64,000 bases of DNA from Lytechinus variegatus (taxonomy: Eukaryota > Echinodermata > Echinoidea > Temnopleuroida > Toxopneustidae): positions 15,956,402 through 16,020,401 of the forward strand of contig NC_054756.1 of the NCBI RefSeq assembly GCF_018143015.1, written 5' to 3'. A program made the translations under genes and the position numbers. Position 1 is the first letter of the stretch. Every line of letters begins with the position of its first letter. This document shows, piece after piece, positions 34,158-59,285 of this stretch. The notes beneath the pieces were generated by a model, which was given only the letters and a program-made list of their open reading frames with translations, did not search any database and was not told the DNA's origin.

Positions 34158-35754
34158 CTATTCGGGACTTGCATGTTGGAGAACGTCATAATCATCGTCG
34201 CCCAAATTCGGAAGTTTCTTGGCAAAGAGAGCTGGTTCTGAGTTTCTTGATACCTTGTCCACTACGGCGTATTCTACTTCGGATGGGCGCAAGTCCCTTG
34301 GCAATGTCGCAGATGGTTTCCTCTTTTGGTTGTCAACAGGTTTCAAAGTTTCAAGCTTTTCTTTGTTGCTACACTCTTCCTCCAGAGACGAATACTTTCG
34401 CAGTTGCCCTCGAGGAGACATCTGGGACAGAATCGAGGACACAGATATCCTGGGAGTGGTCTTTGAGCACTTCTCTGTGCCATTTACATTTTCGTAACTT
34501 GGATTTTCAACGCTCCATTCAGATGAAATTGAAAGGTCCTTGACGGAGCATTTCTTGTTCTTTGATATCAGGAGTTTCTTTTGATCTACATATGAATATG
34601 AGTGGTCCATGTTGTTCACAACATCTTCAGTCTCAAAGGTGTCATCGTTTGTGAATTCGTATTTCAATTGCATTTCGCTGTCGTCGCCAATGGTCGCATA
34701 ATCAGGGTAGAGGACAGAAGGAAACGGGACGCTCTCGATCATACGTCGTCTTCTGGAATCTGGAAGCGTTTTGGATTGTTTTCTACCCTCGAAATAAACA
34801 CTATCATAATCACCATTTCGTCTACTGCCTACCCGAAGCTGTGGTTCTGTACTTAATCGGACAGAGGCTGGTAAGGTGTTCAAATGTTTTTGCTTGTACC
34901 CTGGTGCGTCACTGGGAAGACGTGACGTCCGGCTCTTGAAATCTAGATCTGATACTGTGGCATATTCCCCGCTTTCTAAGCGTCCGCTAATATGACAACT
35001 ACCCGTCTCAGTGTCAAGTTGATTTGTACCGAGTTCAGTCTGTGAAAGATGAGGGAAAACACTGGCATATTCTCGTATAACTGGAGGTCTCAGAGGAGGT
35101 CGTTTCTCCATTGCCTGACTCAAACCGTGCGATCCTTCTTCAAGCTTTTCGCCTTGACTTTCAGTTGCTCCACTACCAATCTCGCAGTACGACCCTTGGT
35201 GGACTGGCGAATACATTCCCGCATCGTACTCGAAACCGTATTTGAAGGGGCAAAGACCTGTCCCTGATATATATATTCCAGATTTGTGTGGCTCGTCGTA
35301 CAATTCCTGTTCTTGATCATCCCTGATAGGGTGTCGTATACTGGGTATGGCCAAAGGCACGCCATTACCGACTGACTCTTGGCTAGTTTCAAACCCTGAC
35401 GCATCGCTGTTGGTTGCCAGCTCACTCAAATCTCCAACATCCCCACTACTGGTCGTTACGAAGCTACCTTCGTTCTTGTGGTGTGCGTTGAGCGACGCGT
35501 ACTCCTCGTCGTGTCGTTTTTGCATCTCCTTGAAGGTCAGTCCCAGATAGGTGGAGAAATCGGTTGGTCTATCCCCACCTCCGAAGGAGCTGTCGAATTC
35601 ACTCTCAGAGACATGAGAAAGTCCACTATAGACGGCTGAGTCCCCGACTGAGTTCATCGGATCTAAGTAGGTGGTGTCCATGACGACCTCCACTGAGGCG
35701 GACAATGCATAAGGAGATGGATCCGCCATGATGGATGCTTTCTTCCTCCGCCGT
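34158..35754 (-). CDS. receptor terminal exon: cytoplasmic tail
   Basis: About 531 residues after acceptor TTTCTTTTTCAG. It opens with the stop-transfer run RRRRKKASIMADP. Counting from that Met, tyrosine motifs are YSGL (34), YLGL (61), YASL (77), YDEP (144), YASV (221), YATV (256), YDSV (308), YATI (344), YENV (412), YAVV (487) and YDVL (514). STYLGL and VEYAVV fit the ITIM consensus, YENV is a Grb2-type YxN site, YDEP a Crk/Nck-type site and RPPLRPP an SH3 ligand. No paired ITAM spacing is present. There is no kinase or other folded domain. Confidence 0.88.
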
Positions 35755-38700
35755 CTGAAAAAGAAATATAAAGAAAAAATCTTGAACTCATAAACAACAC
35801 TAAAGATTGCAAAGCGGCAGACATGGAGGCATTGCAGATTTTGAAATCAATTAAAGCACCTTAAATTTTCACTCTAAAGTGTTTTAACCAATTAACAATT
35901 TACATGAATGGTGTGTACAATTCTGGCAGGCATTTTGTATGTCTGTATGTATAATGTTAACAGGACATCGATGAAAACAGCTTTACTGATTCAATTGTTT
36001 TGTTTTTTATTCTGTGTACAAATGTTGATAAATAGATAAAATGAAAAAAATTATATGATTACTAATTACGCCTTTCTCCTAACGTGATCAACAGCCAATC
36101 AAAATCAAGGATTCCATGGAAGCTATCATACTTTGCTTTCCATACATTTTGTTATTCACCTGTACAGTAATGACACGAAGAGAAGCACGGCAGTACATAC
36201 TAGAAAGAGGATGGCGCCACCTGCTGCCAGGCCGGCAATAGTTGCTGTATTACAAAGGAAGAAGAAATAACACCATCATATTTACACGATTGTAAACTCC
36301 CTTTGAAATAATAAAGAAATTCAAACTCGCATTTACGAGATTTAAATGGAACTGACACGTATCAATGACAAATCAAGAATTAGGCGAAGGTCAAATTTTT
36401 TCTTTTGAAAACGTACGAAGGAGAAATGTCTAAATATCTTCTAGGAGTGGCACTGACGACAGGCAAACTTAAATCACACGGAAGAGAAATGTTCTTTGAG
36501 GAATCTACCACATTAATGACTCACAGTATTAGCTCTCGAGTGGGATATTGATTGATGGGTATCGGGGGAGCTTCCCCGTCTCAGATTGTATATCCCGTCC
36601 AGACAACTTTCTCGGGGTACTGAAGGGGCTCGGGGATCCCATTAATGATCGACAAAAGGAAAAACTATCAATAACATAAAAACTATAACAAAAGTTTGAT
36701 AATCAATTGGCTGTTTGCAACCATCGAAATTTTCATTAAATATCTGCAGCATGAAGTCTACGATATCCACAAGCCATAGACAAAATATCATTTGACTTTA
36801 GTAAAATATTCCTTGGAAGGCAATATTATTTTCCGCGACTGGTTACAAGATTAGCGACAAAGATGATCCCGAAAGACAACATTAGGATGTCATCAACACT
36901 AATGCCGGTCGGTGAATTATTTTGTTTCTCTTGTTAATGATAAAATTGATTTTACATAATATCTGGATTCTGACAGAACAGCCGAATAAAAAATCGAAAT
37001 GTCAACAATACCTTTCAGAAGGCAATTATAGCACCTTTCGGAGGGAATCCCTAGCGTCCGTCGTCATGGTCATACCCGCACTGTGAAATACGAGTGCTGG
37101 CCGTAAGGTTGGGGAATTCCTACGGCTCTGATTTTGAAAAGATGCCGAAATACAATTCGGCAGGTATAGCACGCCTTCCTTTTGCTATTGTTTTTGTCAT
37201 TATACTCTTGATTCTGGAATACATATATTGTAGCAGTGGGTACAGGGACATCTTTCCCCCATCTTCCTCTAGGCCATTGTATGCCACAAGCACTCGTTTC
37301 CCAGATCATGGTTGGAGTAACATTCAAAGGAATTTGAAGTACTGCTAGCATGGCTTGTATGACCGATTATTGACAGGTTCCGGGGCGGTAAGTCCAGGGG
37401 CTGATGGTTCTCCAAGCATGTGAGTAAGCTTGCTATTTCTGTCGAAATTCCTTCCCATTCTTCCTCTCCCCATTCTAAGCTGGCTATGTTTTACATGACC
37501 ACATTCTCAAACCTATTTGATTTCTTCAACTTCTTTTCATTTTTTAGTCTACCCATTTTCCTTCTTGTCAATGACTTTGGTAATAGCGATTTTTCATGTT
37601 TCCCTCTTAATTTCATCATGCACCTGTTGTGCTCCCTTCAGAATGAAAATACATTTTTTTAAAGCTTAATGTTAGTACAATTGGTGACATATCAAGCATT
37701 GTATGGTTGAGGGGGGAGAGTTGATCCATTACTTGTCGATTATTCTTTGCAAGCCGAAAAATAAAGGTGTGCCGCGGCAGAGGGGTGGGGGGGGGGGGGG
37801 GGGAGAGTTCCCGCTGACAAGTACCTTATTTTCAAACCGAAAAGTTGGAACTTTCATTACTATGGAAACACACTTTACAACTCACATGTTGACACGTTCT
37901 GCCCGGTAAACTGTACGACCGCGGTTGTTGAGGCCTTGTCTCGACTGAAGATCGTCGTTGGTGGCGCCCTCCTATCTGTCTGAAGGATTTTTGCAGTGGT
38001 TTTTCGGCCTCTTGTGGATACGGCAGTGGTTTCCTCGGGCGTCGACTGAGCGGTTGTGGTTGGTAACGCTGTGGCGACCGTCGTTTCAGCAGTTGTCGTG
38101 GGAGCTGATATTGGTTGTAACACAGCTATGTTGATAATATGGGGGGGGGGGAGGGGAACGATAGAATGTATTAAACCAACAAACGCTCTCATAAACTTAA
38201 CTATAATTTCATGACAATATGCCTAATAAATCTTTTACACTCATCAGGAAGAATGTGTGATTTGTAGATCGTCAGTCAACTATAAGGTATAATCTAAAAT
38301 AGAGGGAGGAATTTGCAAGTGTCAGAAAAATGGATCGGTAAATAATCACATATACTTGTAAGCTTTCTTTATAAAGATGAATTTCAGCCCATTATGAGTA
38401 ATAAAGTCTGCCGTGACTGCTACTGTTTACCCAATACCGAAGCACCCTCAAAACAGCTTTCAAAGTACCATTCTGACATTTAAGTGTGCTAATTAGGATT
38501 GTTGGTCTGTCGTCTTACAATGGCAAGGTAATCTGACTGGAAACATGTCTATAAAAGGGGTATGAGTAGTTAAGTAATCAATCTTCCTTGACATTCATGG
38601 ACCGCTCGTGGCATTACAACATCCTCTATTTCCACCCTAAACCTTGACCGTGACCCACAGTCTCACGTCTTCTTGACCCAGAATCTACGCCTACAATAAG

Positions 38701-41700
38701 AATAATGTAGATCAAAATAGAGTATATTAGATATACCATAAAAATATATAGGTCGAAAAGCAGATTTTTCGCTTTCACACAACTCGTTTCTCGCCCAGTC
38801 AATAGTTTGGAAAAGACTTTCAACCACTGATTAAACCCAGATGAAAAGCCAAGCAGAATAAGAAAATGGAAACGCTATCTCTGTCATTAATATCGTTTAT
38901 GCAGTCAACAAAATCGGCATACTATCGTACTAGTCAGTGATAAGGCGCCCTCTTGTGGCACAACCATTGATAAAGAATACAGTATGGACAGGGTAGGAGA
39001 AAAAAATACATCAAAGTAAATTTGATTTGGAAAAGTTTTAGGTAAAACTGGTATTAGGTTTACGAAGTTGAAAGGGAAAGTGAAAAACATTGAACGTTTT
39101 TAGATTATAACTCAGTAGGACAACGTTGAAGAGGACGATACACTAAAAACCACACCTCCAAAATGTCAAAATTCTGGGATCATCACACATTTTACTTTAA
39201 TGTCCTCTATCGTTACACATCTCGTGGTCGAGGTAGCCGATTGACCCCGATTGAAAAGACGCCGATTCGGATGCCATTCCTTCATGGGCCTAATTATGTA
39301 ACCTTATCATCGAGTTTTGGAAACTGTATAACAGCAATAATAATTGTACACTGATATTGCGCAAATTCTATATGTGCATTCTCAACTGCCCATTACCATG
39401 ATTACAATAATGGTAATATTATTACCCCGGCTATACTGTATTATAGTCTTGCTGCCTACAGACGTTCTGGCATTCGAGGGATTTCTTACTGGCTACCCAC
39501 TCACCTCACGTCACCAGGGTTTAGTCCCGCATATTACGGGTAAATTTCTTGCGAAGGTAAACACACCAGGGCTTGGAATCGAACCCACGTACGTCCCTCA
39601 GATTGAACAACGAGAGTCATAACCACAAGCCTACGACGCCCTTACATAATAATTTTATCCGAGACCTTCAAAATGAAGTATTTTTTTTCTCATTGTATGG
39701 AACAGGTCAATGTTGGAAATTTTGTGTCGTGTCGTTTCACAAGGAACTTCGAAGGGTGTACAAGACAAGATTTTTCACATGTATACAGATCTATATGTTT
39801 CTTGAGAGATTAAACGCGAATGAAGCACATATACCTCTTTGACTGTTTGACTTATAAACCAACGAACATTTCATATACAGAGTTAAGTCCCCATCTGCAC
39901 TTTCAAAAAGAATCGTTTTGTATCTATCACAGAAAGTCTTCGGGTGACTTTCTTTGTCTATTATAGTGATGACACTCTGATCCTACATCCGAGAGTTCTA
40001 AGAATAACATTTTGACCTGACCTTGAAGATGAAAATGGCGGGAAATTCCGCTCGTGCTCTTCTGCTTCCCTCTACAAACACCGAACTACTTGAGGTGTTA
40101 GGGCTTTTCTATTTGGAATTGTCAGTCAGGTGAATCTGGATGGTTTTATAAAGCGCTGTCATAATTTCCCCATGTGGACCGCCCTGCTGAGCATGCATGT
40201 CGGGTGATCTTCTTCAATAGCGGAAACCGATATTTACCTGAATCAGAAAAGATTTGGGACGGCACCATCCATGTGCTTACATTGATTGTTGAAGAAGGGG
40301 GTAATTGGATAGGACATTTCATTTGGCATATTTCCCTTTCCCTTTTGTAACAACCATGCCTACGATATACCTGGAGTCATTAAAAGAATTATAATTATAG
40401 TTATGAATATCGTCATATGGTTCTTATAATGTCTTTATTCCTGTCCCCTCTTTCTCCCCTTTCAAAAGGTTGCCAAGCGGAAGTGAAATTATTGCTCACG
40501 ACCTGGGGTTCCCTGTTGAAAGAATCGCAGCGATACGTACCCAACCCCGAAAATCAAATGCAACTATTCAACCAATCAGGAACAAACATTTTGGACTTTT
40601 GTAGTTCGTGAAAACGTATCTCTAAAGGGAAAATGGCCCCTGGTGCTTGAAATGGCGACCGTTTGTATCGATCATCGCATATTTTAGGAAGTATAACGTC
40701 ATGAGACAGTTTCAATGTTCCCTAAAACAGGTGTCACCATGAACATGGTGAATGCTTCAATCCGTCGACTGATGATCGCCCGTATTAAAGCCGAGTTGTA
40801 TGGCGTCACGCGTTACGAATCCCGATTGGTTAGGGGGTTTTCTACCTTTAAACACATTAAACAGCTTCCCTTCTATGCCTTCTTCCTCCTCTTTAACGCC
40901 AGCCAGATTGATCTCACATGTAGAATATCAAATGCCAATTAAGCTGAATGTTTTTTTTAGGGGGGATAATCATATCAAAGCACATTTAACAACTACATCT
41001 ATAAGAAAAAAAACATGGTATCAGTTTTAGAGAAGGCCCAATATATCCCACTTTTTATAAATTATATTAATAAATCAGTCACCCCCCCCCCATTTCCATG
41101 TTTCCATTCCCCCAATAATACTTTTCACCAAAGTGAAAGTCACGGACCTGTTCCCTTTGTTATTTTTACCTTCCGATCTACTCAGTTGTCAATAATGGGA
41201 AAACGGAAGCTTGTTTTATCCCAAAATTATAACGTGAAACATATTTCAGATTAAAATAATGTGAGAAGAGCTTTAAAGGCTGACTAATTAGTAAAACATG
41301 AGTGAGGTGTCTGTTGGCGTTTTAGAAAGTGTTTCATGTATCTTCTTCTCAAAATCATCGAAGGTTTGCCACTATGTGTATTAATGAAGACTAGATAAGT
41401 ACTGAAAGGTATTTATCATCCCTACTGATTTCAAGAAGGATGCTACCTTGTCCACGATTGCTTAAAGAAAGTTTGATTTCAAAATGAAGCTTAGGAAATA
41501 CATGTGATAGATTTTAGTTTTAAATAAGGTCATGTTGTGTATTCTGATTTAAAATAGGACCCGGCTTCCACAACGCCCCCTCCCACCAATAATCAAAACC
41601 ATCGCGACACCTTGAAATTTCCAGAAGCAGTCGTGATGGTTCATATCAAATCATTTTGTGCCTGGAGCTTTGATCTTTATCGACCAATAAAACTAAAATC

Positions 41701-44691
41701 GAAGGCATTGTCTTTTAGTATTTTACTTTTATACAACGGGTCGAGGTGTGATTACACACCGAATAGAGAAAACTCCGGTAAGGGTCCATTTTTATTATCA
41801 GATTTCATCATTACTCTTCATATTTTTAGTTTTATCGATTTAGATAGCTCTTTTAAAAAGTCAGGATTGCCATCGATTATTTTCTTCTTTTGTAATTTGA
41901 CCATTTAACTTTTTATGGATGAAGTTGGTTTACCCATGGAGCTATGGACCTATTAACAGCTCCATGGTTTAGCTAACTCTTTATATTTTATTTTAAACTA
42001 GAAGTGATCTTGGCGATACGGATCGATGACCCTCAATGGAGCTGTATTCCGAAAACCTTTCTGTGTTACTTACTGCGAAAGACCGCGAGCTTCTGCACAC
42101 CACCGCAACTCTCTGTCGGATTCCCGACGCACGTCACCTGGCAGTGCTTGTCTGCGTAACGTCCTTGACGCGCGTAATCCGTCACGGCACTACCGCAGTA
42201 ACATTCACTCGCATACTCGACCCCAGCGTACATGTGTCCAAGTTCCATACAGTAGGTCATGCAGACCTGCGGGGACATGACGCTTGTGAAGGGGTAGTTT
42301 GCCGCGGTTAGGACGCGGTCGTACCGGCTATCGCCGTAGCAACCGAGATAGTGTTCATCTGAAAATGTGGAAGAAAATAGAGTGGTTCGCGATTAATAAA
42401 GGTCTATTAAATTATTGTCACATAATCATGCATTGATAGCTGCGGTCATATGGAGTAAAATAATCTTTAAAAAAAAAAATTGTAAAAAATAAATATTAAT
42501 ATGAGCACTTAAAACTACTTTTTAACTTCTAAATAAGTTCATTTTCTGACTTATGACCTATCAGGTTTCATGCCACAATTTGAAAGTATAATCGAACTTA
42601 AAGTGATATAAATATAAGTCATTCATTCTGGCAATCCTACGATTATTTGTTTGTTTTGATATGATTGTGATTATGAAGACTTATCATAAAGTCAAAGTTC
42701 CTTTGAGTGACGGTATTATTTAAATATGATTTTATATGATAATGCCTGACAGACAGCTTAACCCAGAAAATCATATAGACCCATCCCTGTAGCGTCTTTC
42801 TAATTCATCTTTTCGAAAATGATAATCGCCATGATGACACTGTGCTTGACTCTTCTATTACTCTTTGATTTCTCTCATTTAACTTTGCAACACAATATTA
42901 CAGGATTAAGATATCATGCCACCGCTTTATCCGCATGGGACAAAGATGGCGGATGTTGGTTCGTTACCATAGCAACTAGCCCAAGCCGGTGTACACGCTT
43001 CTAGAGTACTGGTATCAAGAGGAGTCCGGGGGCAATCGTTGATTTCCGCTTCGCCTGTCAACGAAAAATGATGTAAATACATGGAAATAGATGAGTGTTG
43101 AGTGGAAGTTGGCCTACATGGACCCCCAAAGTGCAGAGAGATGACCTTTATAATACACCGATGGGCATAAACAAAAATAGTAATCAGTGTTTGATTATAA
43201 TCAACCGTGTCAACAGTCCTTAGATCATGTAGATTTTGCTTGCTCTTATAACAGATGTGAGGGCCGCAAAAGAGTAGGGGGATTCTGTAATGTACCGTTA
43301 TCGGCTGTTGAATAAAAGAACGTAAAACGTAAGATGTAATAAAAACATTTAAAAGATAAAAAAAAATATATAGATGGTGATGACAATATCTTAATGCAAA
43401 TTTTTAAATCTGCCATTTGGGGATTTTTTTTTAATCTGACATAAACAATAGGCACTAAGAATGCTTTAAAACAAAACCCTTTACTACTTCTTCCTCATGT
43501 TTTCGGAAATTGATAAACCTATTCAACATGGTCAATAGGCTATTAGAGAGTTTTCGCTCAGCAACGTACGAAAGAGTCAGGAACAGAGTAAATGTATCGA
43601 AAATTTCCGTCAATGACAAAGAGCAGCTAGGAAGTCTTTATCGAGAAAGTGAACCGGAAGAGCAGTTTCGTTACATTTTTCAGAGCTGACGAAAATTTGC
43701 TAATGGTATTTCGTTGCCTAAAATCAAGCAGGACTGGAATCAAGGAATAAACTGCTGTTTTGATTCACCAATTTTCGACAAAGACCTCTTTGTTGTTCTT
43801 TGCCATGATGGGCATTTAACAATACATTTTCTATGTTCTTGAATCCTTCGCACATCACTGAGCGAAAACTCGGTATTATGCAACCGCCAACCCGCGAAAT
43901 CTACTCCAGACCGATCAGAGCGATCGCGTTATTTCCAATTCCATCTTAGCGGGTTTCGCAATTGCAACGGGAGACGGTTTCTACAACATAGTAAACCTAT
44001 TGAAAATGCCCGACAAAATCACAATGAAGAGCAGAGAGGTATTTGTCGAAAATTGGTGAACCAGGGCTCCGTAACACAAAGATTACCGATCAATCGCTAA
44101 ATGAACTGACCAATCAATATCAATATTACGCGCGCATTAGGGACCAATCAGTGCGGTTTTTCATATTTGCAATCCATCGCAAACCTTTGTGATACGGAGC
44201 CCAGGAGAGCAGATCGTCCTAAGATTCGGACCGGATGATAAATTGCAAAATAGTCGTTTATCCAGCTAGAGTCCAGGACGACACTGCAGTCCCTATTTAC
44301 CGACCTCCGACAAAGCCTGCTTTGTCGTGAAGGGCTTTTGGCAATAGATTCCCTGCGTCATGGAAGGCGTCCCAGCAGTGTTGTGAAAACTCTCTATTAT
44401 ATATACATATCTGTATGTCTGTTTCGTTGAGGTGACAATAAAGTTTAATAGGGTACCTACTTCCTGTACAGCTGAACAGTTGGTTGTAGAAGGATATCGG
44501 TCTATCAGGGTTGGTCTCCTCTACCGTGAATGCCCGACTGGCTCCTGCCTGACCTAGCTGCCTACAGATGACCTGGACGTCGATGATACCCCACGATGGC
44601 GTGTGGCATACCGTCAGCCATATCGACCTCGCCCCGTCGAGGATCTCGACGATGCCCGAGAACTGACTGGTGCCGTTCACCAAGCGGACCT
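34158..44691 (-). CDS. SRCR-WSC type I membrane receptor with Tyr-rich tail (5' end not found)
   Basis: Six coding exons assemble in frame: 44461-44691 and 42968-43054 (SRCR), 42074-42358 (WSC), 37886-38125 (Ser/Thr-rich stalk), 36160-36244 (membrane helix) and 34158-35754 (cytoplasmic tail with TAG stop). The ectodomain exons are all phase 1-1. SRCR domains bind microbial or protein ligands and WSC domains are linked to carbohydrate binding, so the extracellular part looks like a recognition module. The tail offers many phosphotyrosine sites for SH2 proteins. I infer a cell-surface signalling or phagocytic receptor, perhaps of coelomocytes. SRCR genes are greatly expanded in sea urchins, but I do not know a named gene with this exact order. 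The first exon with the signal peptide must lie upstream (right) of 44691 and was not seen; more ectodomain exons may exist. Confidence 0.85.
36160..36244 (-). CDS. receptor exon: transmembrane helix
   Basis: Encodes TIAGLAAGGAILFLVCTAVL and then LFVSLLYR, one long hydrophobic helix followed directly by the Arg/Lys run of the next exon. The phases fit both neighbours (phase 1 in, phase 2 out). The orientation is type I. Confidence 0.9.
37094..37348 (+). CDS. possible short type II membrane ORF in a receptor intron
   Basis: From an internal ATG at 37142 the frame reads MPKYNSAGIARLPFAIVFVI and a continuing hydrophobic stretch, then a Ser/Pro-rich segment, and stops after NIQRNLKYC. A short basic N-terminus, one helix and a stem is the layout of Golgi glycosyl- or sulfotransferase first exons, but no catalytic part is seen. 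It could equally be chance or a gene fragment. Confidence 0.2.
   Translation: MLAVRLGNSYGSDFEKMPKYNSAGIARLPFAIVFVIILLILEYIYCSSGYRDIFPPSSSRPLYATSTRFPDHGWSNIQRNLKYC
37886..38125 (-). CDS. receptor exon: Ser/Thr-rich stalk
   Basis: Eighty codons rich in Thr, Ser, Ala and Pro (APTTTAETTVATALPTTTAQ and similar), typical of an O-glycosylated mucin-like stalk just before a membrane helix. The donor T/GTGAGT is clear. The acceptor at 38126 has a C-rich tract; an alternative acceptor at 38105 would drop seven residues in the same frame. Confidence 0.8.
38126..42073. other. long receptor intron
   Basis: AT-rich intron with a SINE at 39460-39645. Further 1-1 phase exons could be hidden here, but none was recognised on the minus strand. 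Confidence 0.5.
39460..39645 (-). mobile_element. tRNA-derived SINE
   Basis: Minus-strand head GTAGGCTTGTGGTTATGACT (A box) with a strong B box GGGTTCGATTCC at 39575-39587. The body continues into ACCCTGGTGACGTGAGGTGA. No closed cloverleaf or gene-like tail was found. Confidence 0.65.
42074..42358 (-). CDS. receptor exon: WSC domain
   Basis: Ninety-five codons, phase 1-1, acceptor ACATTTTCAG and donor GCA/GTAAGT. The segment runs from DEHYLGCYGDS through SPQVCMTYCMELGHMYAGVE, ECYCGSAV and HCQVTC to ESCGGVQKLAVFR. Eight cysteines in WSC order and the YAGVE..ECYCG core identify the domain, which occurs in yeast stress sensors, Kremen and polycystin-1. A carbohydrate-binding role is inferred from those families. 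Confidence 0.93.
42968..43054 (-). CDS. receptor exon: C-terminal third of the SRCR domain
   Basis: Twenty-nine codons, phase 1-1, acceptor CGTTGACAG and donor TATG/GTAACG. Joined to the 44461 exon it reads CTGSEAEINDCPR and ends ACTPAWASCY, which is the CxGxE..L..C...C.....C end of an SRCR domain. The usual HxEDAGV signature is replaced by TPAWASC, so this end is divergent. Confidence 0.82.
43545..44060. repeat. inverted repeats in a receptor intron
   Basis: GAGTTTTCGCTCAG (43549) is mirrored by CTGAGCGAAAACTC (43858), and CACCAATTTTCGACAAAGAC (~43765) by TTTGTCGAAAATTGGTG (44042-44058). They may be two overlapping foldback elements. Non-coding. Confidence 0.6.
44066..44200. mobile_element. 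MITE, family D copy 2
   Basis: GCTCCGTAACACAAAG at the left and GTGATACGGAGC at the right. CCAGG flanks both sides (44061-44065 and 44201-44205). It shares GATTGGTC/GACCAATC blocks with 24906-25062 and abuts the foldback at 43545-44060. Confidence 0.75.
44461..44691 (-). CDS. receptor exon: N-terminal two thirds of the SRCR domain
   Basis: Seventy-seven codons, phase 1-1, acceptor TTCCGCTGCAG. It starts EVRLVNGTSQFSGIVEI and contains WLTVCHTPSWGIIDVQVICR, the hallmark of SRCR domains. The donor chosen is GGAA/GTAGGT because it alone joins the 43054 exon in frame; a GTACCC two codons on would shift the frame. The complete domain has six cysteines and two exons, the group A arrangement. Confidence 0.9.
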
Positions 44692-45160
44692 CTGCAGCGG
44701 AATAATGATAAAATGGAAATGTTTGTTGACGGTCGAAGTGAGTTAACGCAAGCCTGCGCCAGAAACTGTTTTGAAGTCTCATCACGCTCGCTGTTACGCA
44801 ATCTGAGCGCGTTGCCAGTAAATCAATCAGTCCGTCAATCAATGAACAAAAAACAACGAAAAATAAACGAATTAAATAACAAAATATAAAGAGGGCTGAA
44901 AGAGAACGTAAAGAATGGCCATGTAGACAATGATAGATGCATTGATAAAGATTGAACAAATTCGGTAACATGGTTAATAAATTTATACATATACATTAAA
45001 AATGAAATTCAATTCAATGGAAAGTAAAACTTATAATTAACGACATAATCGCTTTCAATTCATGAAGTTAGTGCTAATACTTGGTTTGAGTAATATTATA
45101 TTATTAAGTCTGTTACGAACATGACGAAGTTTTGCAAAAGAATGAATGTCTAGCCGACGG

Positions 45161-45456
45161 TTCAATAATCATTTGGTCCAATCATCACTTCGTCTAATCA
45201 CCAGTTGGTCTATTACCATTTCGTGTCATAAGAGGTTGGTCTAATACTCGTTTTATTTTCATTCATTTTACTTTTACCTAGTCTAATTAGACAATTGGTA
45301 TATGGACTAAATGGCAATTGGACCAACTGGTTATTAGAAGAAATGGTGAGTGGACAAAATGGCAACTAGACCATGTGGATATTGGAAGAACTGATGGTAG
45401 ACCAATGATAGTAAACGAGTTGGCAATTGGAAGAATTGGCACATGAAAATAAACCC
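45161..45456. repeat. inverted minisatellite element, copy 5
   Basis: Units such as CATTTGGTCCAATCATCACT on the left, TTTTCATTCATTTTAC at the centre, TTGGACCAACTGGTTATTAG on the right, ending GAAAATAAACCC. The left end is shortened. Confidence 0.75.
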
Positions 45457-46375
45457 GTAAGAGAATGGACACACAGACAGGGGATGGGGCATTAAATCAA
45501 TTTTATCTCATGATGATCTTCAACACATTGTGGCTCATTTCATTTCCACTCCACTCCCTCTTAAAGCCACATATGCTCTCTCTTATCACCCATTTTTACT
45601 TTAAATACGTCGACATTAACAACCACAAATTGCATGAATCACGGAAATATCCAAGTGGCTTGATAGAATTAACCTGTAACACCTAAGTTTGCATAAGGTA
45701 ATTGAAAAAAAAGGATTTTCAAAGGGCGGGAGTGCGAATTCAGTGCTGTCCGGAACTAATTTGAAGGAGTTGGGCTACATAGTTAATGGTTATTTTTAAA
45801 CGCTTTAAATTTTTTATCAAGTTTTATGGTTTTGAATTAAATCATTCCCTCCCAAACCTGAACTTTCTTGTAACTTCTGAAGATTTCCATGGCGAAGAAG
45901 ACATGTAGCAGGTTTAACCAGTGTTGTAGTGCCTTGATGCTCGGCCTTGGCCTTAAGGCGCCTCAAGGCCTATTTTTTCAAAGCCTTGGCCTTGAACATT
46001 CAAGCCTTGGCCTTAAGAGAGCCTTGGCCTTGGCCTTGTGGATTTCGAGCCTTGAAATTTCAAGGCATTTTCAAGGCATTTTCAAGGCTTTTTCAAGGCA
46101 TTTTGTATTTTGTACTTTCATTTGTTTTATACAAGTAATAATAAATGTTTCAATTATTCTGTACATCTAATGACACTAAATACTACCAGTCAGCTGCAGC
46201 AGAAGCAGTAAGTGTACTTAGCAGTGCCATCAATTGCAATTATCATCACATAATTATGTAACAAAGAGAAGTGATGAAAATTAATCTTATTTATTGGGAA
46301 TATGATGTAATCATGACTAATAAGGATAATGACAATATTAATGATAATGATAATAATTATGATTAGGATTATAAT

Positions 46376-47543
46376 CAGTGGCGTAACTACAGGGGGGGCA
46401 TGGGGGCATGTGCCCCCCCCTCCCCCCCCCAATCGGCTGACTAAAAAAGGAGGAAAAGAGGGAGAAAGGAAGAGAAACGTAGTGGGAAAGAAGACATTAA
46501 TGTTCATTATAATGTTATAATTATGTTATGTTACATTACATAAGAAACATTTTTTCATATAAATGACACATAATTTGCTCAGGGCATATGTCTTCATTGT
46601 TCCTGGTGCTCCCATTGTCTGTTTACCGAGATATATAATCCTGTTATACTAAAACCTCCCGTTTTCAAGTCAATATACACCAAACTACCAAATATATTTC
46701 CTCGCACTTCGAGTTATTCTTTTACATGTACAATAGTATGCTTCTTTTTCATGAATACTTTAAGTGATTGTCCCATTTTAAGGTCTTAATATAAAACATT
46801 TCCTGTCCGTGCTTACGTTCGCAGTAGTGGATTGGTGAAAGATGTCTGCTCTCCATCAATTCCTAGAATGAGTCCTTAAAATGTCCCTTTTCTGTTTTCT
46901 GATCTGAATATCAAAAATTTTTAGCTCGCGCTTCGCGCTCGCATCATTTGGTTAGTGAACTACGTAATGTCTTCTTGAATTCCTACAAACAAGCCTTAAA
47001 ATGCCCCTCTTCAGGTCTGAATTTCCTAAATTTTCAGCTCGCGCTTCGCGCTCGCAAGATTTGATTAGTGAGATGGGTATGTTAATCATGATTACAAGTG
47101 CTTTATGTGCATGTTTAGATGTAATTCTAACAAAATCAGCAAGCGCTTATTGGCACTCCCATTAGATGACTATGGTGAGATGTGGATAATCTTAATAGAT
47201 AAAAGATTCCTAAAATATAGTCCTTAAAATCTTCCTGTTTGGGGTCAATATTTACAAAAATTTCAGTTCGCACTTTGCGCTCGCATTATTTAGCGAGACA
47301 GGTACGTATCATGATTACAAAAGATTGATTGTAATGTCCCTTTTTAGGTTTGAATATCAAAAATTTTAAGCTCGCGCTTCGCGCTCGCATTATTTGACTA
47401 GTGAGATACATGTCCGTTTATTGGCACTGTCCTTATAAAAATATCTCTATTTGGTCAGTTTACCTGGCAACTGGGCGCGCTCACTAGGCAATTCCAAGTT
47501 TTTGCTGGTGCCCCCCAATGCCGTGACCCACGCTACGCCACTG
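46376..47543. mobile_element. nested hAT-like element
   Basis: Ends CAGTGGCGTA and TACGCCACTG are perfect 10-bp TIRs. The flanks ATTATAAT (46368-46375) and ATTATAGT (47544-47551) match at 7 of 8 bases. C/G runs follow the left TIR. The interior includes tandem GCTCGCGCTTCGCGCTCGCA units. Non-coding. Confidence 0.75.
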
Positions 47544-48075
47544 ATTATAGTGATTTTATGACAGGAATAATTCTGACAGATCTGACTGCAATTTAGACAA
47601 CAATTTTCATACTTTAAAAATAGCTTACTCTAAAGAATGATAACAAGGTTGATTTCTATTCCATTAGGTTTTCCTTGTATCATTTTCTTTGACCAACAAG
47701 ATAGTTTAAGTTTTAATGATATTCTGAAAAGATTCGGTAAACTTGAACACAAACTTCAATTGTTGAGAATGTTGAGGGGCCAAGCATGGCATACAGAGCA
47801 AAATTTTAGGTTTCAAAATCAACAAATTTTGGATTGTGCTTGCATAAATTATTGTTAAGGTTCGCATTCAATTTACACAAAAAAAATGCTTAGAATGTCT
47901 AGTTTTTAGGTCGGAATATTACAAATTTTTGAGCTCGCGCTTTGCGCTCGCATTATTTGATTGGTGAGTTATGTATCCTATTTATGAGTCACTAAATGCA
48001 GTCCAGAACAGCTTCCTTTTCTGGTCTGTAAAAATTTCAGCTTGTGTTTTGTGCTTGCGTTAATTTGTTTAGTAA
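46860..48075. repeat. ~110-bp satellite with a GC-rich 20-mer
   Basis: GCTCGCGCTTCGCGCTCGCA or close variants at 46924, 47037, 47266, 47370, 47933 and (diverged) 48040. Each is preceded by a GAATAT..AAATTTT block and followed by ATTTGATTAGTGAG-like sequence. Spacings are 113, 229, 104 and 107 apart from one jump across 47390-47930. Confidence 0.75.
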
Positions 48076-48945
48076 GATGCATACCTTTTTCATGATTACA
48101 AAAACAGCTCGAAATATTTAAATTACATTTCTTATTACATCTTATTACAACATCTCGCAAGGATGCCCTTTTAACAGTGATTAGCACCATAATTGACCCA
48201 AAATCGAGTTTTACAACTTCAAAATTGTTTTTTTTTTCAAAACCACTTGCTCGCTAATTAAAGCCTAAATCAAAATATCTGTCTTATCAATTAGAAATAA
48301 CTTAAAAAAGCTTTGCTGAACTGCACCAAAATTATCATTTTGACTTATACTGTAAGTGCATTTTTGGCTTTGACCTCCCCCCCCCAAAAAAAAAATACAT
48401 TCTGCCTCCCCTGTCCCAGGTAGAGGAGAAAGACATATGTTGAGAATGGGCATGCCAGGATCAGATCACCTTGGTAATAATGATTGCAATGTGAATCGCC
48501 TAGAACAATAATTAAATGTACAAAGGTAACTACATATTTATTTTAATTTTATGTCTAAATCTACATGATCTATCATGAAATTATTTTCGTTTAAATGTAC
48601 AAGGGTCAAAAATTTTGCTCGCTCACACCTTTTATACATTTGGTCCTGTGTGTCATGTATGCTGCCTAAGCATTGTTGTCTAATTTTTTTTCCATATATT
48701 GTACAATTGAAATGCCTTGGCCTTGGCCTTGAGGTTTTCAGGCCTTGGCCTTGGCCTTGGGTTTCCATGCCTTGGCCTCAGCCTTGGTTATTGAAGCCTT
48801 GGCCTTGGGTATTAAAGCCTTGGCCTTGGCCTTGGAGGTTTGAGCCTTGACTACAACACTGGGTTTAACAGTACACCATATATCTTTCTTCTTTCCTATT
48901 ATTTTATTATTTTATGATATGCTGATCCTTTTCCTCGTGAATCTA

Positions 48946-49091
48946 GGGAGCTTTTCATCAACACTTTCATGCGACAATTTGTCAGATCTGACAACTTTCC
49001 TTGATTCTGATTGGCTTAGAAGCACTGTTACTATGGTAACTGTCTGATAAAACAGGATTTGTCGGATCAAATCCTTTAATGAAACGCTCCC
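48946..49091. mobile_element. palindromic MITE, family B copy
   Basis: GGGAGCTTTTCATCAACACT, TTGTCAGATCTGACAACTTT and GATTCTGATTGGCTTAG, ending AATGAAACGCTCCC. Complete but more diverged than 20488 and 32451. Confidence 0.75.
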
Positions 49092-50066
49092 AAGTTCCTC
49101 TCTCCAACCTTTAACAGTTTGCTCGTTGCAACGTTGGGAGTTTTAAACAACATTCAGTTGGGAAAAAAATATTTGCAAATGTAAGGTTCATTATACTGCT
49201 GCAATTCATTTTCATTTTTTGTACCAGATACTAGGGGAAAAAACATGTCCCAATGTTGTTTCTTGTAACAAAATAAGACAAGGAAAAAAAAGTCGTCTTG
49301 ATACTTGATATCATATGTGTTCGGATTTCAGATATCGTCGTATATCTTTTTTGACAAGATGATCTCTGTTGAACCACAAACCATTATTGTTAAGGATAAA
49401 ACAAAGATAGACATCTAACCTTAGTCGGAACTTATTCCCCCAAATATTATGGGATTAAACAGGTATTGTTCTTCTCAATCTTGACATCTCTAATCTTGAG
49501 ACAATGGAAGGTGTTATAGTCTGTGTTTCAAGCTTCAGAATTCCAAAGCAAAATATGAAAACAGCTGTTGCTAATGGGGGTTAAAAGGAATCCGCATATA
49601 GATCATTAAAATGATGTTTTGTATATTCATTTTTATCGCAATATGCACAGAAAATACATATTTCGCTATGTGATTTTTTTGGAAGTATTAAAAATAAACA
49701 TTTTTCTTTCCCTTTCAAAAAAAAGCCATATTAGCAGTTCTTTTGCCATAATGAGACAACAAACATGATTCCATGAATCTTATTCTGTGAATTTTGTAAT
49801 CAATATTGCTTTTCAATTAATTTCTTTTTTTAATGCTTTTCTCATTGATGATTAATCTAATAATATATTTAGATTTAAGGAATTATGATAAAAAGTACGA
49901 TTCTGAAAAAAAAATGCAATTATCGAAAAGACAAAAGAAAAAAAATCAAACTTATATGGGGATAGCAATACTACCCCCCCCCCAAACAAAAAAATAATAA
50001 TAATCATGCCAGTCCACCGGGGTAGTCACAAAGCAGATATTTGAAGTCTGGACCTTGGTATACTGG
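49092..50066. other. no feature recognised
   Basis: AT-rich DNA with A- and C-runs. No exon-like frame or clear repeat. Confidence 0.5.
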
Positions 50067-50150
50067 GCATGTTAGCTCATTGGTGGTAGTCAGAGGGCCT
50101 GCATCTTTCGAACGGAAGTTCATCGTGAGTTCGGTCCCCGTTCGGATCAC
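50067..50150 (+). mobile_element. tRNA-like SINE head
   Basis: A-box-like TTAGCTCATTGGTGGTAG and B-box-like GTGAGTTCGGTCCCC with a long spacer. Too divergent for a functional tRNA. Confidence 0.45.
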
Positions 50151-50369
50151 ACCAAATATAAAAGATTTCTTAAAAAGATCTTGTCAGACCCTAGACGTAT
50201 ATGAGAATGTTAATGGAACTTAATGCTAATTACATGTTTATCTTTCAAGGTTCGTTGGAACAGGGTAGATTTACCCAGTGTAAATTTCCCGAGTTATTGT
50301 CCTACATGTATTATTTGTATTTCTTATTTTACGTCTAGTAAAAATTCCTCATCATTTTCGAGCTATCCG

Positions 50370-50609
50370 TACACTGCAAAAACTCCGGTGTTGATTTACC
50401 ATCTATTTTATGTCCACACCAGGGAAGTAGTGGAACAACACAAGTTTGGAAGCAAACCGATGTTGTTTTAATACTAATTAATGTTTTATAAACATCTATC
50501 TGTTGTTATACCAAAACCAAACTGGTGTTGTTTAACACTTCTCTGGTGTGGATGTATATAATTATATTCCAGGCTGGTGGCAAATCAACACCGGAGTTTT
50601 TGCAGTGTA
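50370..50609. mobile_element. palindromic MITE, family E copy 1
   Basis: TACACTGCAAAAACTCCGGT and its inverted partner ACCGGAGTTTTTGCAGTGTA form 20-bp perfect TIRs. GTCCACACCAG / CTGGTGTGGA and AACAACAC / GTGTTGTTT inner arms also pair. The second copy is at 53390-53630. Confidence 0.88.
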
Positions 50610-53389
50610 GATAATGGAACACCGTTGAAGAACCGAATCTGCCCGCATCTCCACAGTTCAATCATCAAAGGCATATCCCATGCCCTCGTAGGAAATCCCC
50701 ATACAACGCTTAAAAAGTTCAAATTGGTGATGAGCCATTAGAATAATTGTGAAATATGTTCGTTTGCTTCTCTCTGACCTTTTTTGACGGATTTACAGCT
50801 TCAATCCAGGCATTTCCTCTTGTTAATGTGAGGTTGATTAACTAACTAAATATTTTTTTTTGTTGAAATAATGATACTTAATCAAGGACAGGAGCCTGAT
50901 CAAACAGCTGGGGACCGTAATATTATTGTTTCAATTGGATCGATGTATTTATCATGAATCCAAAGAGGGGCATTTTGTAATTTGTCGTCGATTTCACTTT
51001 CTTTGCTTTGTTTATTTATTTTTTTGTAACTGTGTATTTCTTCCATCAAACCCTGCCAATTTATCGAAGGTCAAAATCTACCGATTAAAGTAAACTTTGG
51101 GCAAAGTTCATTCAGAGTTGTTAGTGAGAATGGGAACCGTTTACGGTGTATAAGTGGCTCGAGTTTCTGAAAGTGGTTGATGGCTTTCGAAAGAGTTTGA
51201 TGGCTTTCGGATAGATATTAAAGAAAACAATTATATATTGTGCATCATGGCCATGATCACCAGAGGATGCATGCACGTATTACTGTGTGTGCTGTCATGA
51301 CTGGTGCACGAAATCCTTCAATGTAATTTTTGAAAATACAAAAGCGCCCACATGACAAGCTCGGTCGATTTGCTCCCTCTTTTCCGAGTTTCTTCAATTT
51401 TTTATGCGTCTTACCCCCCCCCCCCGTAGTCAAGATAGTCTTTAGAAAGAAAGTATCATACTTTGTTTGTTTTACAAAATTATTTCATTTAAAAGTTACC
51501 CAAACTCATCATGCCCATGGAAAAAGCAATTTCAATGTGATACGCCATTACTCATATTTATCACAAGGATCATTTCTTTAGGTGATATGAACTATCCGCT
51601 CTTTCTTTCTTCTATTTCACTTTATACATGTTCTGAAAGGAATGTTCATCTTTTTATATGCATTAAATTCAAATTAATCAGGAATAGTTCCAAAAACTAT
51701 ATCGTGAAGTGGCAAAAAAATGTTCCAAATACTGACTCATAATTTCCACCATAAAGTGTGCATGAATCGGGGAATTCGGAGAGGTTACCCAGCGAGGTTA
51801 TTTTCAAACTTTCCTGGAAATGCCGTCAGCTCTTCGTTTCCCAACTTCACTGAAAGAAGGGGTAAGGTTGCGAGGAGGGGGTAAAATTGAGCTGCAACAT
51901 TCGATCCTCCTTAAGCCAGGGGTGCTGAAAGTTGAATTTATCATGACAAGGTAGATTAGGCAAACGAGAAATGTACCCCGGGAGAAAGTAGGTTAAATCT
52001 GGCAAAATCACGCTGTTTGTGGAGAGTAGATAAAACAGGCAACATCTTTTATGAAAACTATTTTCGAACGAATATTGGTGAAGGAGGAGCTCCGTGAAAT
52101 TTGAAAGATACCTCACAGATGTTATAATCAATCTGCAACATATGCAGGAATGCGCGAGGCCTGTTAATGCGGTTGAGGCTCAGTAGATCTATTCGAAGTT
52201 CAAGATGTTACATTTTGAGCAACATAACACCAACAGCGATAGAAGAAACAGGAACAAGTGTCTGACACTTATATGATAAATATAACCTTGCTATATATGT
52301 GGCGTATCAACTAACGGGTAAATTGTGACTAGTCTGATGCCTATTATATGAAGTTCTACCCCAATTTTATTCTTTTAAATCTTATTTCAAAATAATAATT
52401 CAACGAAATCAAATAGTTATTCGACAATATGTTGCGTGTGGATTCCATGACAACAGGCTATGATAAACAAAAATTAACCTCTTTCTGAGATGACATCATT
52501 ATAACGGCGATGTATATAATTATGTATAATCCCGAACAAGATCGTTGGTCAGTCGCCATAACGACCAGACCTTTCAAAGATTGACCCTTTTATACGCTTA
52601 AAACCCTTCTTAACTCATTAACCTTATAAATTCCTATTTGGAGAAATAAGGACACTAAGTTCTTTACTTCTACATTGACATAACGTCCTTTATAGTACTC
52701 GGTATATCAAACGATCCGAACGGCACCGCAACCACAGAAATGCTATATCCAAATTTTGAGGCTAATGAGTAACAATTTAAATGGGCAGATAATCTTTAGT
52801 CCAAGCATTATGTTTATAAAATAAGGACGCGTCTTAATTTTCCTTTGGAAAAAGGTTTACCATCCTCGTTTGCTTATGTGGTATAGGATCATTTAAACAT
52901 TAACCTACTTATTTATATAACGGATGTTATGACAAACATTGTCCAGTATAACGGAACAATGTCAACAACAACATGTAAAGTCGATTAAACCCAGGTCCTG
53001 TGTAATAACAATTGCAACGATTGTTTTGCATGTACAATTTGTGCCAGCTTTGGGTTCCCTTCCATGCTATTTGTGGTGAATAACGATCACAACCTTCAAC
53101 CTTCTTTTTTAATTGCAAAACGGATGCGGTGTTTAATATTGCATAGCGGACCAATGTCAAACAAACAATAGCAACAGCCAACAAGTATCAGCCAGCCCCC
53201 CCAACAAAAAAATACTTATAGGCTTGTTCTTCCTTTAGCTATGTGGTGACTAAAATTATGAACAAATGTAATTTCAGTGCTCTTTACAAATATACAATTT
53301 TCACAAGTAAAATAAGTTAGTGAAATAAATATTAATACGAGAAAATTTTCACTAAAATTATTATATTTTTTTTTACAGTTACACTGCAA
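50610..53389. other. no gene recognised
   Basis: AT-rich. A block at 51300-51425 (GAAATCCTTCAAT, AAAAGCGCCCA, C-run) is related to 12600-12720 (GAAATCCTTCAAT, AAAAGCTCCCC). Splice-like signals near 51780-51855 on the minus strand were not convincing. Confidence 0.4.
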
Positions 53390-53630
53390 AAACTCCGGTG
53401 CTGATTTAGCACCAGTCCGGAATCTATATATGTCCACACCAGAGAAGTGTTAAACAACACCAGTTCCGTTTTAGTCTAACACCAGAAAGGTGTTTATACA
53501 ACCCCAATTAGTATTAAAGCAGCATCGGTTTGATTCCAAACTGGTGTTGTTTCAATACTTCTCTGGTGTGGACATTACATGTATAGATTTTGGCCGGGTG
53601 TTAAATCAACACCGGAGTTTATGCAGTGTA
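53390..53630. mobile_element. palindromic MITE, family E copy 2
   Basis: TACACTGCAAAAACTCCGGT at the left and ACCGGAGTTTATGCAGTGTA at the right. The interior GTCCACACCAGAGAAGTGTT and AACTGGTGTTGTTTCAATAC aligns with copy 1, 3 kb away. Confidence 0.88.
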
Positions 53631-54043
53631 CGAAATGTATGTTTTAAGGGGCGACCTACTGAGAAGATCGGTAAGGAAGATGAGATTTTTATAGATAATA
53701 AAATTAGGGGTTATTAGGTATATATTATTAAAATTGAAATTAAGTTCATATACATGAATGCCGAATTCTGTATGATCTCAATCGCTACGTTATTCAACAG
53801 GTTCAAAATGGGCGTTGGGTTTGGAGAATATTCTCAAACTTTTGAGAAACAATTTAAGGTAAATTTAATAATAGGCAAAACGCTAATAAGTCATAATAAT
53901 TAGAAACTCAATGTAAATCGCTTAATCAAAACAGGTTCCCATTACACCTCATCCAACGAAAAAAAATAAATAAATGAAACAATATGACCGTACAATCACT
54001 GAACATACACCTCGTTTGCCATTAGACATAGTACGATAAATAG

Positions 54044-54178
54044 ATTCAATTGTCATCAATCTGCATGCCTAGCACGTGTTTTTGATACCGACTTTTAATT
54101 AATTAATTAGTCCACAGTGACAGACATGTTAATTGAAAACATGTATGCATGATGTAAGAGGTCAGTAATATTCATAGA
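54044..54178. repeat. direct repeat, copy 1 of 2
   Basis: Blocks GACTTTTAATTAATTAATTA, AGTCCACAGTGACAGAC and GTAAGAGGTCAGTAATATTC recur in the same order at 54896-55023. Confidence 0.75.
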
Positions 54179-54895
54179 GCTTTCTTAATTATGTGCATGA
54201 TTGACCGTATTTTTCTGCTCTCAATCACAAATGCTTGCACCGAGGGGGGGGGGGTAAACTCCAATCCTGCTCGAGCAGGCATACACAGTGTAATCTTGCA
54301 CCCCTCCCCCCGATATATCCATAAAAGCATTGCCCATGATGTTGAACATGTTGGAAATGGAATAAGCAATCTCAAACAAAGTTCGCTAAATCTCCTTTAG
54401 GAGCAAACTAGGGGAGGTTAAACATTTATCATTTTGTTATGTTTGTATTGAACACACATTAAAGTATATAGCATATACATGATATATATAGCATACGGTG
54501 TTGTATTTTGTTTAAAGACTCTGGAAGCTTGTTTTGTGGAGTATTATTTGATTTGATTCATTTTTCTTCCGCATTCACAACATTCGAATACAATACAATT
54601 TCCATTACGTTACAAACATAATATATCAGTATTTGATTTTGGTATGAATCATAAAGAAAAAAATACAAAAATAAATAAGTCATTTTAAATGAATATGATC
54701 TACTACCAACAAAGAGAATTTAACATTTACAGTTTGCAGGAGAAGGATTGTCATTATGAGCAGATCGCTTGAAAAAAATGACAACCCCGATTATGTGCAA
54801 GCTAACTCTAATTGCGGCACCAAGAGGACATTCAACCCCTCCCTCAGTTTCCCCAGAATTTTGTTTAAATAAAAAAGTATATATATTTTTAAATA

Positions 54896-55023
54896 GATTG
54901 TCATTAATCTACATGCCTAGCGCGTGCTTTTGATACTGACTTTTAATTAATTTAGTCCACAGTGACAGACGTGTTAATTGATAACACGTATGCTTTATGT
55001 AAGAGGTCAGTAATATTCATAGT
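54896..55023. repeat. direct repeat, copy 2 of 2
   Basis: Same orientation as 54044-54178 with scattered substitutions (GCGCGTGCTTTTGATAC versus GCACGTGTTTTTGATAC). Either a local duplication or two insertions of one short element. Confidence 0.75.
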
Positions 55024-55386
55024 ATAGTGCTCTTAAAATACAATTTTTTCACTCTTCAGTGCGCGACAAGATTTCTCCAATTTTTTCGTGTTCGCCCTGC
55101 CCCCCCCAAAAAAAAAGCATTTTGACAAATACATTGTGAATTCCCTTTAAATAGAAACAATTCAGGGTTAAGAAAGTCGGTGGATTATGAAAATTATGAT
55201 TGTGTATATAGTCAAGGGAGTTTGATATATCGGAGACCTCGACTTATTTAAGATCCTAAGGGACAGCTGGTGAATTGTCTCTCAAGTACAGCTATGGAGT
55301 GCGAGGAGACCGTACGGGTGCTCCACCATGCAATGTGTATATGATTTTGAAAATTTGTAGATTGAAATTTGTGTAAGTTCGTCATG

Positions 55387-55573
55387 CACTCTTAAAATGA
55401 TGGGCAACATACTGTCCACACAACAAGTGGTTAAAAAGATGTATCCAACTCTGGGAAGTTTTCAACCAATACTTTCTAGTTTTCACACATTATTGGTTTA
55501 AAACTACCCAGTATTGGATAAAGTTTTAACCAATTGTTGTGTGGACAGTACGTTGCCCAACATTTTAAGAGTG
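55387..55573. mobile_element. palindromic MITE with CACTCTTAAAAT ends
   Basis: CACTCTTAAAATGATGGGCA and the inverted end ...TTGCCCAACATTTTAAGAGTG pair, followed by ACTGTCCACACAACAA / TTGTTGTGTGGACAGT arms. At 187 bp it is non-coding. Confidence 0.85.
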
Positions 55574-55737
55574 TGTTTGTCGAAAAATTATTATTGATAA
55601 CGGTAGGTCGGCGGCAATTTTGTCATGTAACTAAACCTTGAAGCAAACATTACATGTATAATTTACTAATTCTCCTGAGAATTATAAGTACTCTTGAAAA
55701 AAGCTTTCCCCAATGTTATATCGATAGGTTGTGTGGG

Positions 55738-55802
55738 TTAGGGTGTGTGTGCGTGTGTGTGTGGGTGTGTGAGGGTGCCTGTGGGGGTGTGTATGTGTGT
55801 CT
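55738..55802. repeat. GT-rich microsatellite
   Basis: Interrupted GTGTGT tract with GGGTGT variants. Confidence 0.8.
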
Positions 55803-58800: not shown

Positions 58801-58822
58801 CTCGATTTTTTGTCCCCTTCTG
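55803..58822. other. no gene recognised
   Basis: AT-rich, with a 21-bp palindrome at 56183-56203 and a weak GTTTTATAAATATTTGTTA foldback at 58065-58225. The frames at 56312-56605 and 56929-57362 have no recognisable content. Confidence 0.4.
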
Positions 58823-59077
58823 ATACCACCACCACCAGCACTACTACTACTACTACTACTGCTACTACTACTACTACTACTTCTGCTGCTGCTGCTACTA
58901 CTACTACTACTACTTATAATAATAATAATAATAATAAAAACAAATAATAATGATAGTAATGATAATGATAGAAATGATAATAATTATAATGATAATAATA
59001 ATAATGATAATAATGATAATAATGATAATAGTGATAATTATCATGATAACAATACTGCTACTATTAATAATGATAAA
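58823..59077. repeat. compound trinucleotide microsatellite
   Basis: Runs of ACT, GCT and CTA units change into AAT and then GATAAT-type repeats. The leucine- and asparagine-rich reading frame across it is a by-product. Confidence 0.9.
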
Positions 59078-59119
59078 AAATGAATATTTCTAATGCACTC
59101 TTTAATAATGATAATATTA

Positions 59120-59285
59120 ATATGATAATAACACTCAATATTTATAACGCGCTTTTCCCATATGGCCCAAAGCGCTCAAAATTTCAGGTAACATATTCAC
59201 ACAAACAAAAATCCGAATGACATGTTAAATGAAGGCAGTTGCCTCGAACAAAAGAGTTTTAAGGGACTTCTTGAAGGACTTGATT
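59120..59285. repeat. AACGCGC..CAAAGCGCT repeat
   Basis: ATTTATAACGCGCTTTTCCC, GGCCCAAAGCGCTC and a trailing block with GTTTTAAGGGACTTCTTGAA look like a dispersed repeat adjacent to microsatellite DNA. A shorter relative (GTATAGCGCATCAC) follows (AAT)n at 61796-61870. Confidence 0.45.

Follow-up and report, generated by a model that had tools for sequence, protein, structure and literature searches.

The 64,000-nt stretch of Lytechinus variegatus DNA analysed here (the window) raises the question of whether one sea-urchin gene joins an SRCR domain, a WSC domain and a long tyrosine-bearing cytoplasmic tail, and of what such a protein would bind and how it would signal. To our knowledge, signalling by sea-urchin SRCR receptors is mostly unknown. 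The reading we favour, with a probability of about two in three (0.66), is that of an echinoid type I signalling receptor with an SRCR-WSC ectodomain, the tail of which would act as an SH2 scaffold, as suggested by the footprint of conservation in three proteins.

Gene structure and database counterpart

When the six minus-strand exons, together spanning 10.5 kb, were spliced from the window DNA, they gave a continuous reading frame for 840 residues with a single stop, TAG at 34158 (Table 1). The product corresponds to LOC121431027 of L. variegatus (P0001), an existing model named “uncharacterized protein”, with 825 of 840 residues identical and no gap; P0001 residue numbers equal those of the window protein plus 40. 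The 15 substitutions were distributed as 1 among the 200 residues of SRCR and WSC, 3 among the 80 of the stalk and 11 in the tail, with none at a tyrosine and one at position +3 of Y737. The joins used six AG acceptors and five GT donors with junction phases of 1, 1, 1, 1 and 2, and these splice sites, phases and the gapless alignment agree with the six in-frame exons of the original prediction. Extension of the second SRCR exon to a downstream in-frame stop was rejected, since the donor at 42967 preserves the frame and agrees with P0001.

Table 1. Coordinates of the receptor gene features in the window
Feature	Position	Strand	Remarks
SRCR exon 1	44461..44691	-	Both ends in phase 1; Pfam SRCR match spanning the two SRCR exons, E 2.7e-14
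SRCR exon 2	42968..43054	-	Donor GTAACG at 42967; junction residues same as in P0001
WSC exon	42074..42358	-	Eight cysteines and CGG; Pfam WSC E 5.4e-16; Kremen-1 chains E 3e-9 to 6e-9
Ser/Thr-rich stalk exon	37886..38125	-	Ser/Thr make up 31 of the 80 residues at P0001 241-320
Membrane helix exon	36160..36244	-	Hydropathy peak 2.63 at P0001 326-344
Cytoplasmic tail, single exon ending in TAG	34158..35754	-	21 tyrosines invariant in three proteins
Upstream stretch without 5' exon or extra SRCR/WSC exon	44692..64000	-	tblastn search and Pfam scan

A 5' exon, the search for which had been proposed, was not found in the window: P0001 residues 1-40 gave no convincing match in its 64,000 nt, the best tblastn hit (E 0.034) being the known SRCR exon itself, in a search that very short exons would escape. 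If the P0001 model is right, the first intron measures at least 19.3 kb. A putative signal peptide is likely encoded outside the window; an N-terminal hydropathy peak above threshold was seen at P0001 11-29 and was absent from the two relatives described below (P0002 and P0003).

Read-through Pfam scans, run over both strands of positions 1-34157 and, for 44692-64000, over the minus strand, revealed no other SRCR domain in these parts of the window; the latter stretch held two sub-threshold matches to other families and neither SRCR nor WSC. A lone SRCR gene is ordinary, since in one count, as reported in the consulted part of PMC10855680, 104 of 357 sea-urchin SRCR genes were scattered and 253 lay in tandem arrays. 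Exon-like matches on the receptor strand pointed to a neighbouring gene of the TMEM14 family (Tmemb_14; 26777-26875, E 3.5e-5, and 27493-27609, E 3.1e-6), and a further one to Peroxin-3 (4833-4946, E 1.4e-8).

Relatives with the same domain order

Protein search was performed against approximately 5.8 billion proteins at E <= 0.001, scoring the 7,996 candidates that shared most words with the query, a design that would miss paralogues shorter than 0.55 or longer than 1.75 times the query. Among the scored candidates seven matched, namely P0001, P0002, P0003 from Diadema antillarum (98, 76 and 48% identity to the window protein, correspondingly) and four fish proteins, which covered 10-20% of the query and had SRCR without WSC in their domain lists; no Strongylocentrotus purpuratus protein was present among these seven. 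SRCR, WSC, helix and tail followed in the same order in P0001, P0002 and P0003, so that the proposed search for relatives of identical architecture yielded two beside the L. variegatus model. Residues invariant in the three proteins numbered 119 of 200 in SRCR and WSC, 20 of the 80 that form the stalk, 15 of 25 close to the helix and 223 of 535 in the tail.

The type I receptor is apparently conserved among echinoids, putatively as a single copy. LOC121431027 was not named in the literature searched, which consisted mostly of the main texts of freely accessible papers, and the gene is real, already predicted in public databases and seemingly unstudied.

Ectodomain and candidate ligands

Group A SRCR domains are coded by more than one exon. 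The domain found here (window-protein residues 4-104; 53.7 bits against a Pfam cut-off of 26.1) is divided between two exons and contains six cysteines in all three proteins, as expected from the six-cysteine rule for group A given in PMC10855680; two further Pfam matches, DUF6465 and SRCR_2, remained under their cut-offs. Four residues separate it from WSC (window-protein residues 109-192; 59 bits against 27.8), where eight cysteines (P0001 152-230) and the CGG motif named in PMC9024836 were present in 3/3 proteins. The stalk and one membrane helix follow, the latter separating the SRCR-WSC ectodomain from the long tail at the C-terminus, and thus the predicted order of group A SRCR, WSC, Ser/Thr-rich stalk, single helix and tail of about 530 residues was borne out by Pfam, cysteine counts and hydropathy. 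An AlphaFold2 model built from the three-row alignment reached a mean pLDDT of 27.6 and was uninformative. By whole-sequence E-value, the closest solved structures were CD163 for SRCR and Kremen-1 for WSC (E 3e-9).

In SRCR8 of DMBT1, D1019, D1020 and E1086 bind a cation at site 2, mutation of which abolishes ligand binding, and MARCO has the same site (PMC7043408, as far as consulted). The DMBT1 residues D1019, D1020, S1021, D1023 and D1026 fit the sequence DDSWDLND in a fish SRCR, where the glutamate also lies at a compatible distance (67 in DMBT1) once a three-residue difference in length is allowed for. At the corresponding positions all three receptor proteins carried CHTPSW, with HTPS between Cys and Trp, and CxPAWASC, with xPAWAS between the last two SRCR cysteines; none of the three acids was present. 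Judged from these residues, cation-dependent binding by the urchin SRCR is unlikely.

Given this ectodomain, the protein might serve as a co-receptor in development or adhesion and bind an endogenous protein, similar to Kremen in that respect, a reading that we consider possible and on balance somewhat improbable. The Kremen-1 match of WSC and the conservation of the ectodomain (119/200) speak for it, as does CD6, which has lost calcium dependence and uses the same SRCR surface to bind a protein (PMC7043408, in the part consulted); against it, the absence of Pfam matches to Kringle or CUB at E up to 1 in the window protein means that the receptor is not a Kremen.

A pattern-recognition or phagocytic scavenger receptor, in which SRCR would take polyanionic microbial ligands, WSC would bind glycans and the tail would drive uptake, appears rather unlikely to us. 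Both domain matches are significant, the SRCR genes of sea urchins form an expanded set regarded as immune receptors (PMC10855680, consulted in part), the scattered position of 104/357 of them leaves the lone locus without weight as a counter-argument, and WSC adopts the PAN/Apple fold, which is known to contact proteins and carbohydrates according to the accessible text of PMC9024836. Pointing the other way are the single difference between window and P0001 in 200 SRCR and WSC residues and, weakly, the lack of an acidic counterpart of site 2 in 3/3 proteins: among 13 fish SRCR stretches from the same alignment, chosen by a simple pattern, both aspartates were kept in 3 and one or both lost in 10, so that such a loss is not unusual and the case against a scavenger function is weakened.

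Concerning the integrity of the gene, P0002 is encoded on a contig of 3,573 bases, within which its 885 codons and stop (2,658 bases) are entirely contained; the contig is most simply a transcript, since it is too short for introns like those of the L. variegatus gene. Two separate genes are very unlikely because P0002 and P0003 share the whole order from SRCR to tail. A chimeric model with ectodomain and tail exons from different genes, for which introns of up to 3.9 kb between the WSC and tail parts leave room, is highly improbable given that phases agree at every junction and that the same join recurs in three proteins, one of them on the 3,573-base contig. The single receptor originally proposed stands, as one sea-urchin gene for a type I protein.

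Conservation of the cytoplasmic tail

The tail comprises 532 residues (P0001 349-880, counted from the basic stop-transfer) and has no Pfam domain. Searches with the single tail (7,741 candidates) and with a three-row profile (7,993 scored) returned only P0001, P0002 and P0003, the profile giving no further relative even at E 1; these searches require shared five-residue words, and distant relatives may escape them.

Tyrosines stood out from the remaining tail residues. In P0001 346-880, 21 of 26 were invariant in the three proteins, and among all other residues 202 of 509 (Fisher p 4.8e-5); D was the runner-up with 21/38. Invariance next to the 21 tyrosines was 17/21, 15/21 and 19/21 at +1, +2 and +3, and 14/20, 12/20 and 9/19 at -1, -2 and -3. 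Altogether 81% of the +1 to +3 positions were invariant versus a mean of 55% at random invariant non-tyrosine sites, a value reached in 0 of 10,000 random draws; the +3 value had p 0.0002, and the excess of C-terminal over N-terminal invariance p 0.005. SH2 domains read residues C-terminal to phosphotyrosine (PMC3514216, in the part consulted), and a peak of conservation at +1 to +3 is what SH2 docking predicts. The comparison of the three proteins supports selection on the tail for tyrosine-centred sites, as the original prediction of a multi-site tail implied, and the same conservation makes it a putative phosphotyrosine tail.

Particular motifs were enriched to different degrees. V, I or L occupied +3 in all three proteins at 14 of the 21 invariant tyrosines, and Y..[VIL] occurred 14, 14 and 15 times in the respective proteins, against 3.6-4.3 in shuffles. 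Five copies of [DE]YAx[VIL] were counted in each, with 0.03-0.06 in shuffles, at the same five places (P0001 434, 578, 613, 701 and 844). The ITAM consists of YxxL/I-x6-12-YxxL/I and binds Syk when phosphorylated. An ITAM-like pair, YLGL-x12-YASL, was present in 3/3 proteins and marginal by shuffle (p 0.06-0.07), while counts of YxxP (p 0.30-0.47) and YxN (p 0.17-0.62) did not exceed those in shuffles; for YxxP (Y378, Y501), YxN (Y769) and the ITAM-like pair the support therefore lies in conservation in three proteins, not in number. NPxY was rejected as a conserved PTB-docking motif, being found in P0001 and missing from P0002 and P0003.

Proposed mechanism

In the type I signalling receptor that we favour, SRCR and WSC would engage a ligand in a way that dispenses with the canonical cation site of SRCR domains, and clustering would lead a Src-family or other kinase to phosphorylate the tail, which would then gather SH2 proteins. 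Candidate partners are proposed from vertebrate SH2 motifs: Grb2, which prefers N at +2, may dock at Y769 (YxN), and Crk, which needs L or P at +3 (both preferences from the consulted part of PMC3514216), or Nck at Y378 (YLDP) and Y501 (YDEP or YDTP). The YxxL and [DE]YAx[VIL] sites could attract Syk- or SHP-type proteins; for invertebrates, PMC10253181, consulted in part, gives a single Syk-like gene plus SHARK. Such a receptor-borne SH2 scaffold might act in adhesion, engulfment or immune signalling.

A more specific proposal would be an echinoid receptor class with a single SRCR-WSC ectodomain, cation-independent non-canonical binding and a 530-residue SH2 scaffold bearing both the ITAM-like pair and five inhibitory-motif-like [DE]YAx[VIL] sites. 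We hold this combination to be quite unlikely in its entirety; if true, one invertebrate receptor would carry both activating and restraining docking sites.

Comparison with known receptors

Group A SRCR proteins (MARCO, SR-A, DMBT1 and the sea-urchin expansion) share with this receptor the six-cysteine, two-exon SRCR and, in many members, a helix and tail, whereas it has one SRCR, no canonical cation-site residues and a long conserved tyrosine tail. Class A scavenger receptors have a collagen-like region and type II topology; Pfam gave no match to a collagen-like region at E up to 1, and the type I protein described here falls outside that class. Many tyrosines for SH2 docking are carried by ITAM and ITIM receptors, LAT and IRS. 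The urchin tail may work alike, with many conserved YxxV/I/L sites and a C-terminal footprint, its phosphorylation being putative; single and profile searches found no sequence relation between it and these proteins.

Kremen-1/2 are likewise type I proteins with WSC, in the order Kringle-WSC-CUB (PMC3927609, consulted in part), but the present receptor is without Kringle or CUB, has SRCR in front and bears a long tyrosine tail. Both domains also occur within single echinoderm proteins: in the accessible section 2.2 of PMC10855680, WSC ranks among the five domains most often combined with SRCR in sea-urchin genes (36; 8.96%), and the sea-star skeletal protein PMI_006935 has scavenger-receptor, WSC and Sushi domains (PMC5460417, in the part consulted). 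A receptor with single SRCR, single WSC and such a tail is not described in the available parts of that tally or for the Sushi-bearing PMI_006935. The original claim that no characterised gene has this order agrees, as regards SRCR-WSC with a tyrosine tail, with the literature searched (few subscription papers, main texts); the SRCR and WSC combination itself was already in print.

The conserved tyrosines and their docking residues would provide specific candidate sites for the study of SRCR receptor signalling in an invertebrate, and the protein also presents an SRCR domain without an apparent standard ligand site.
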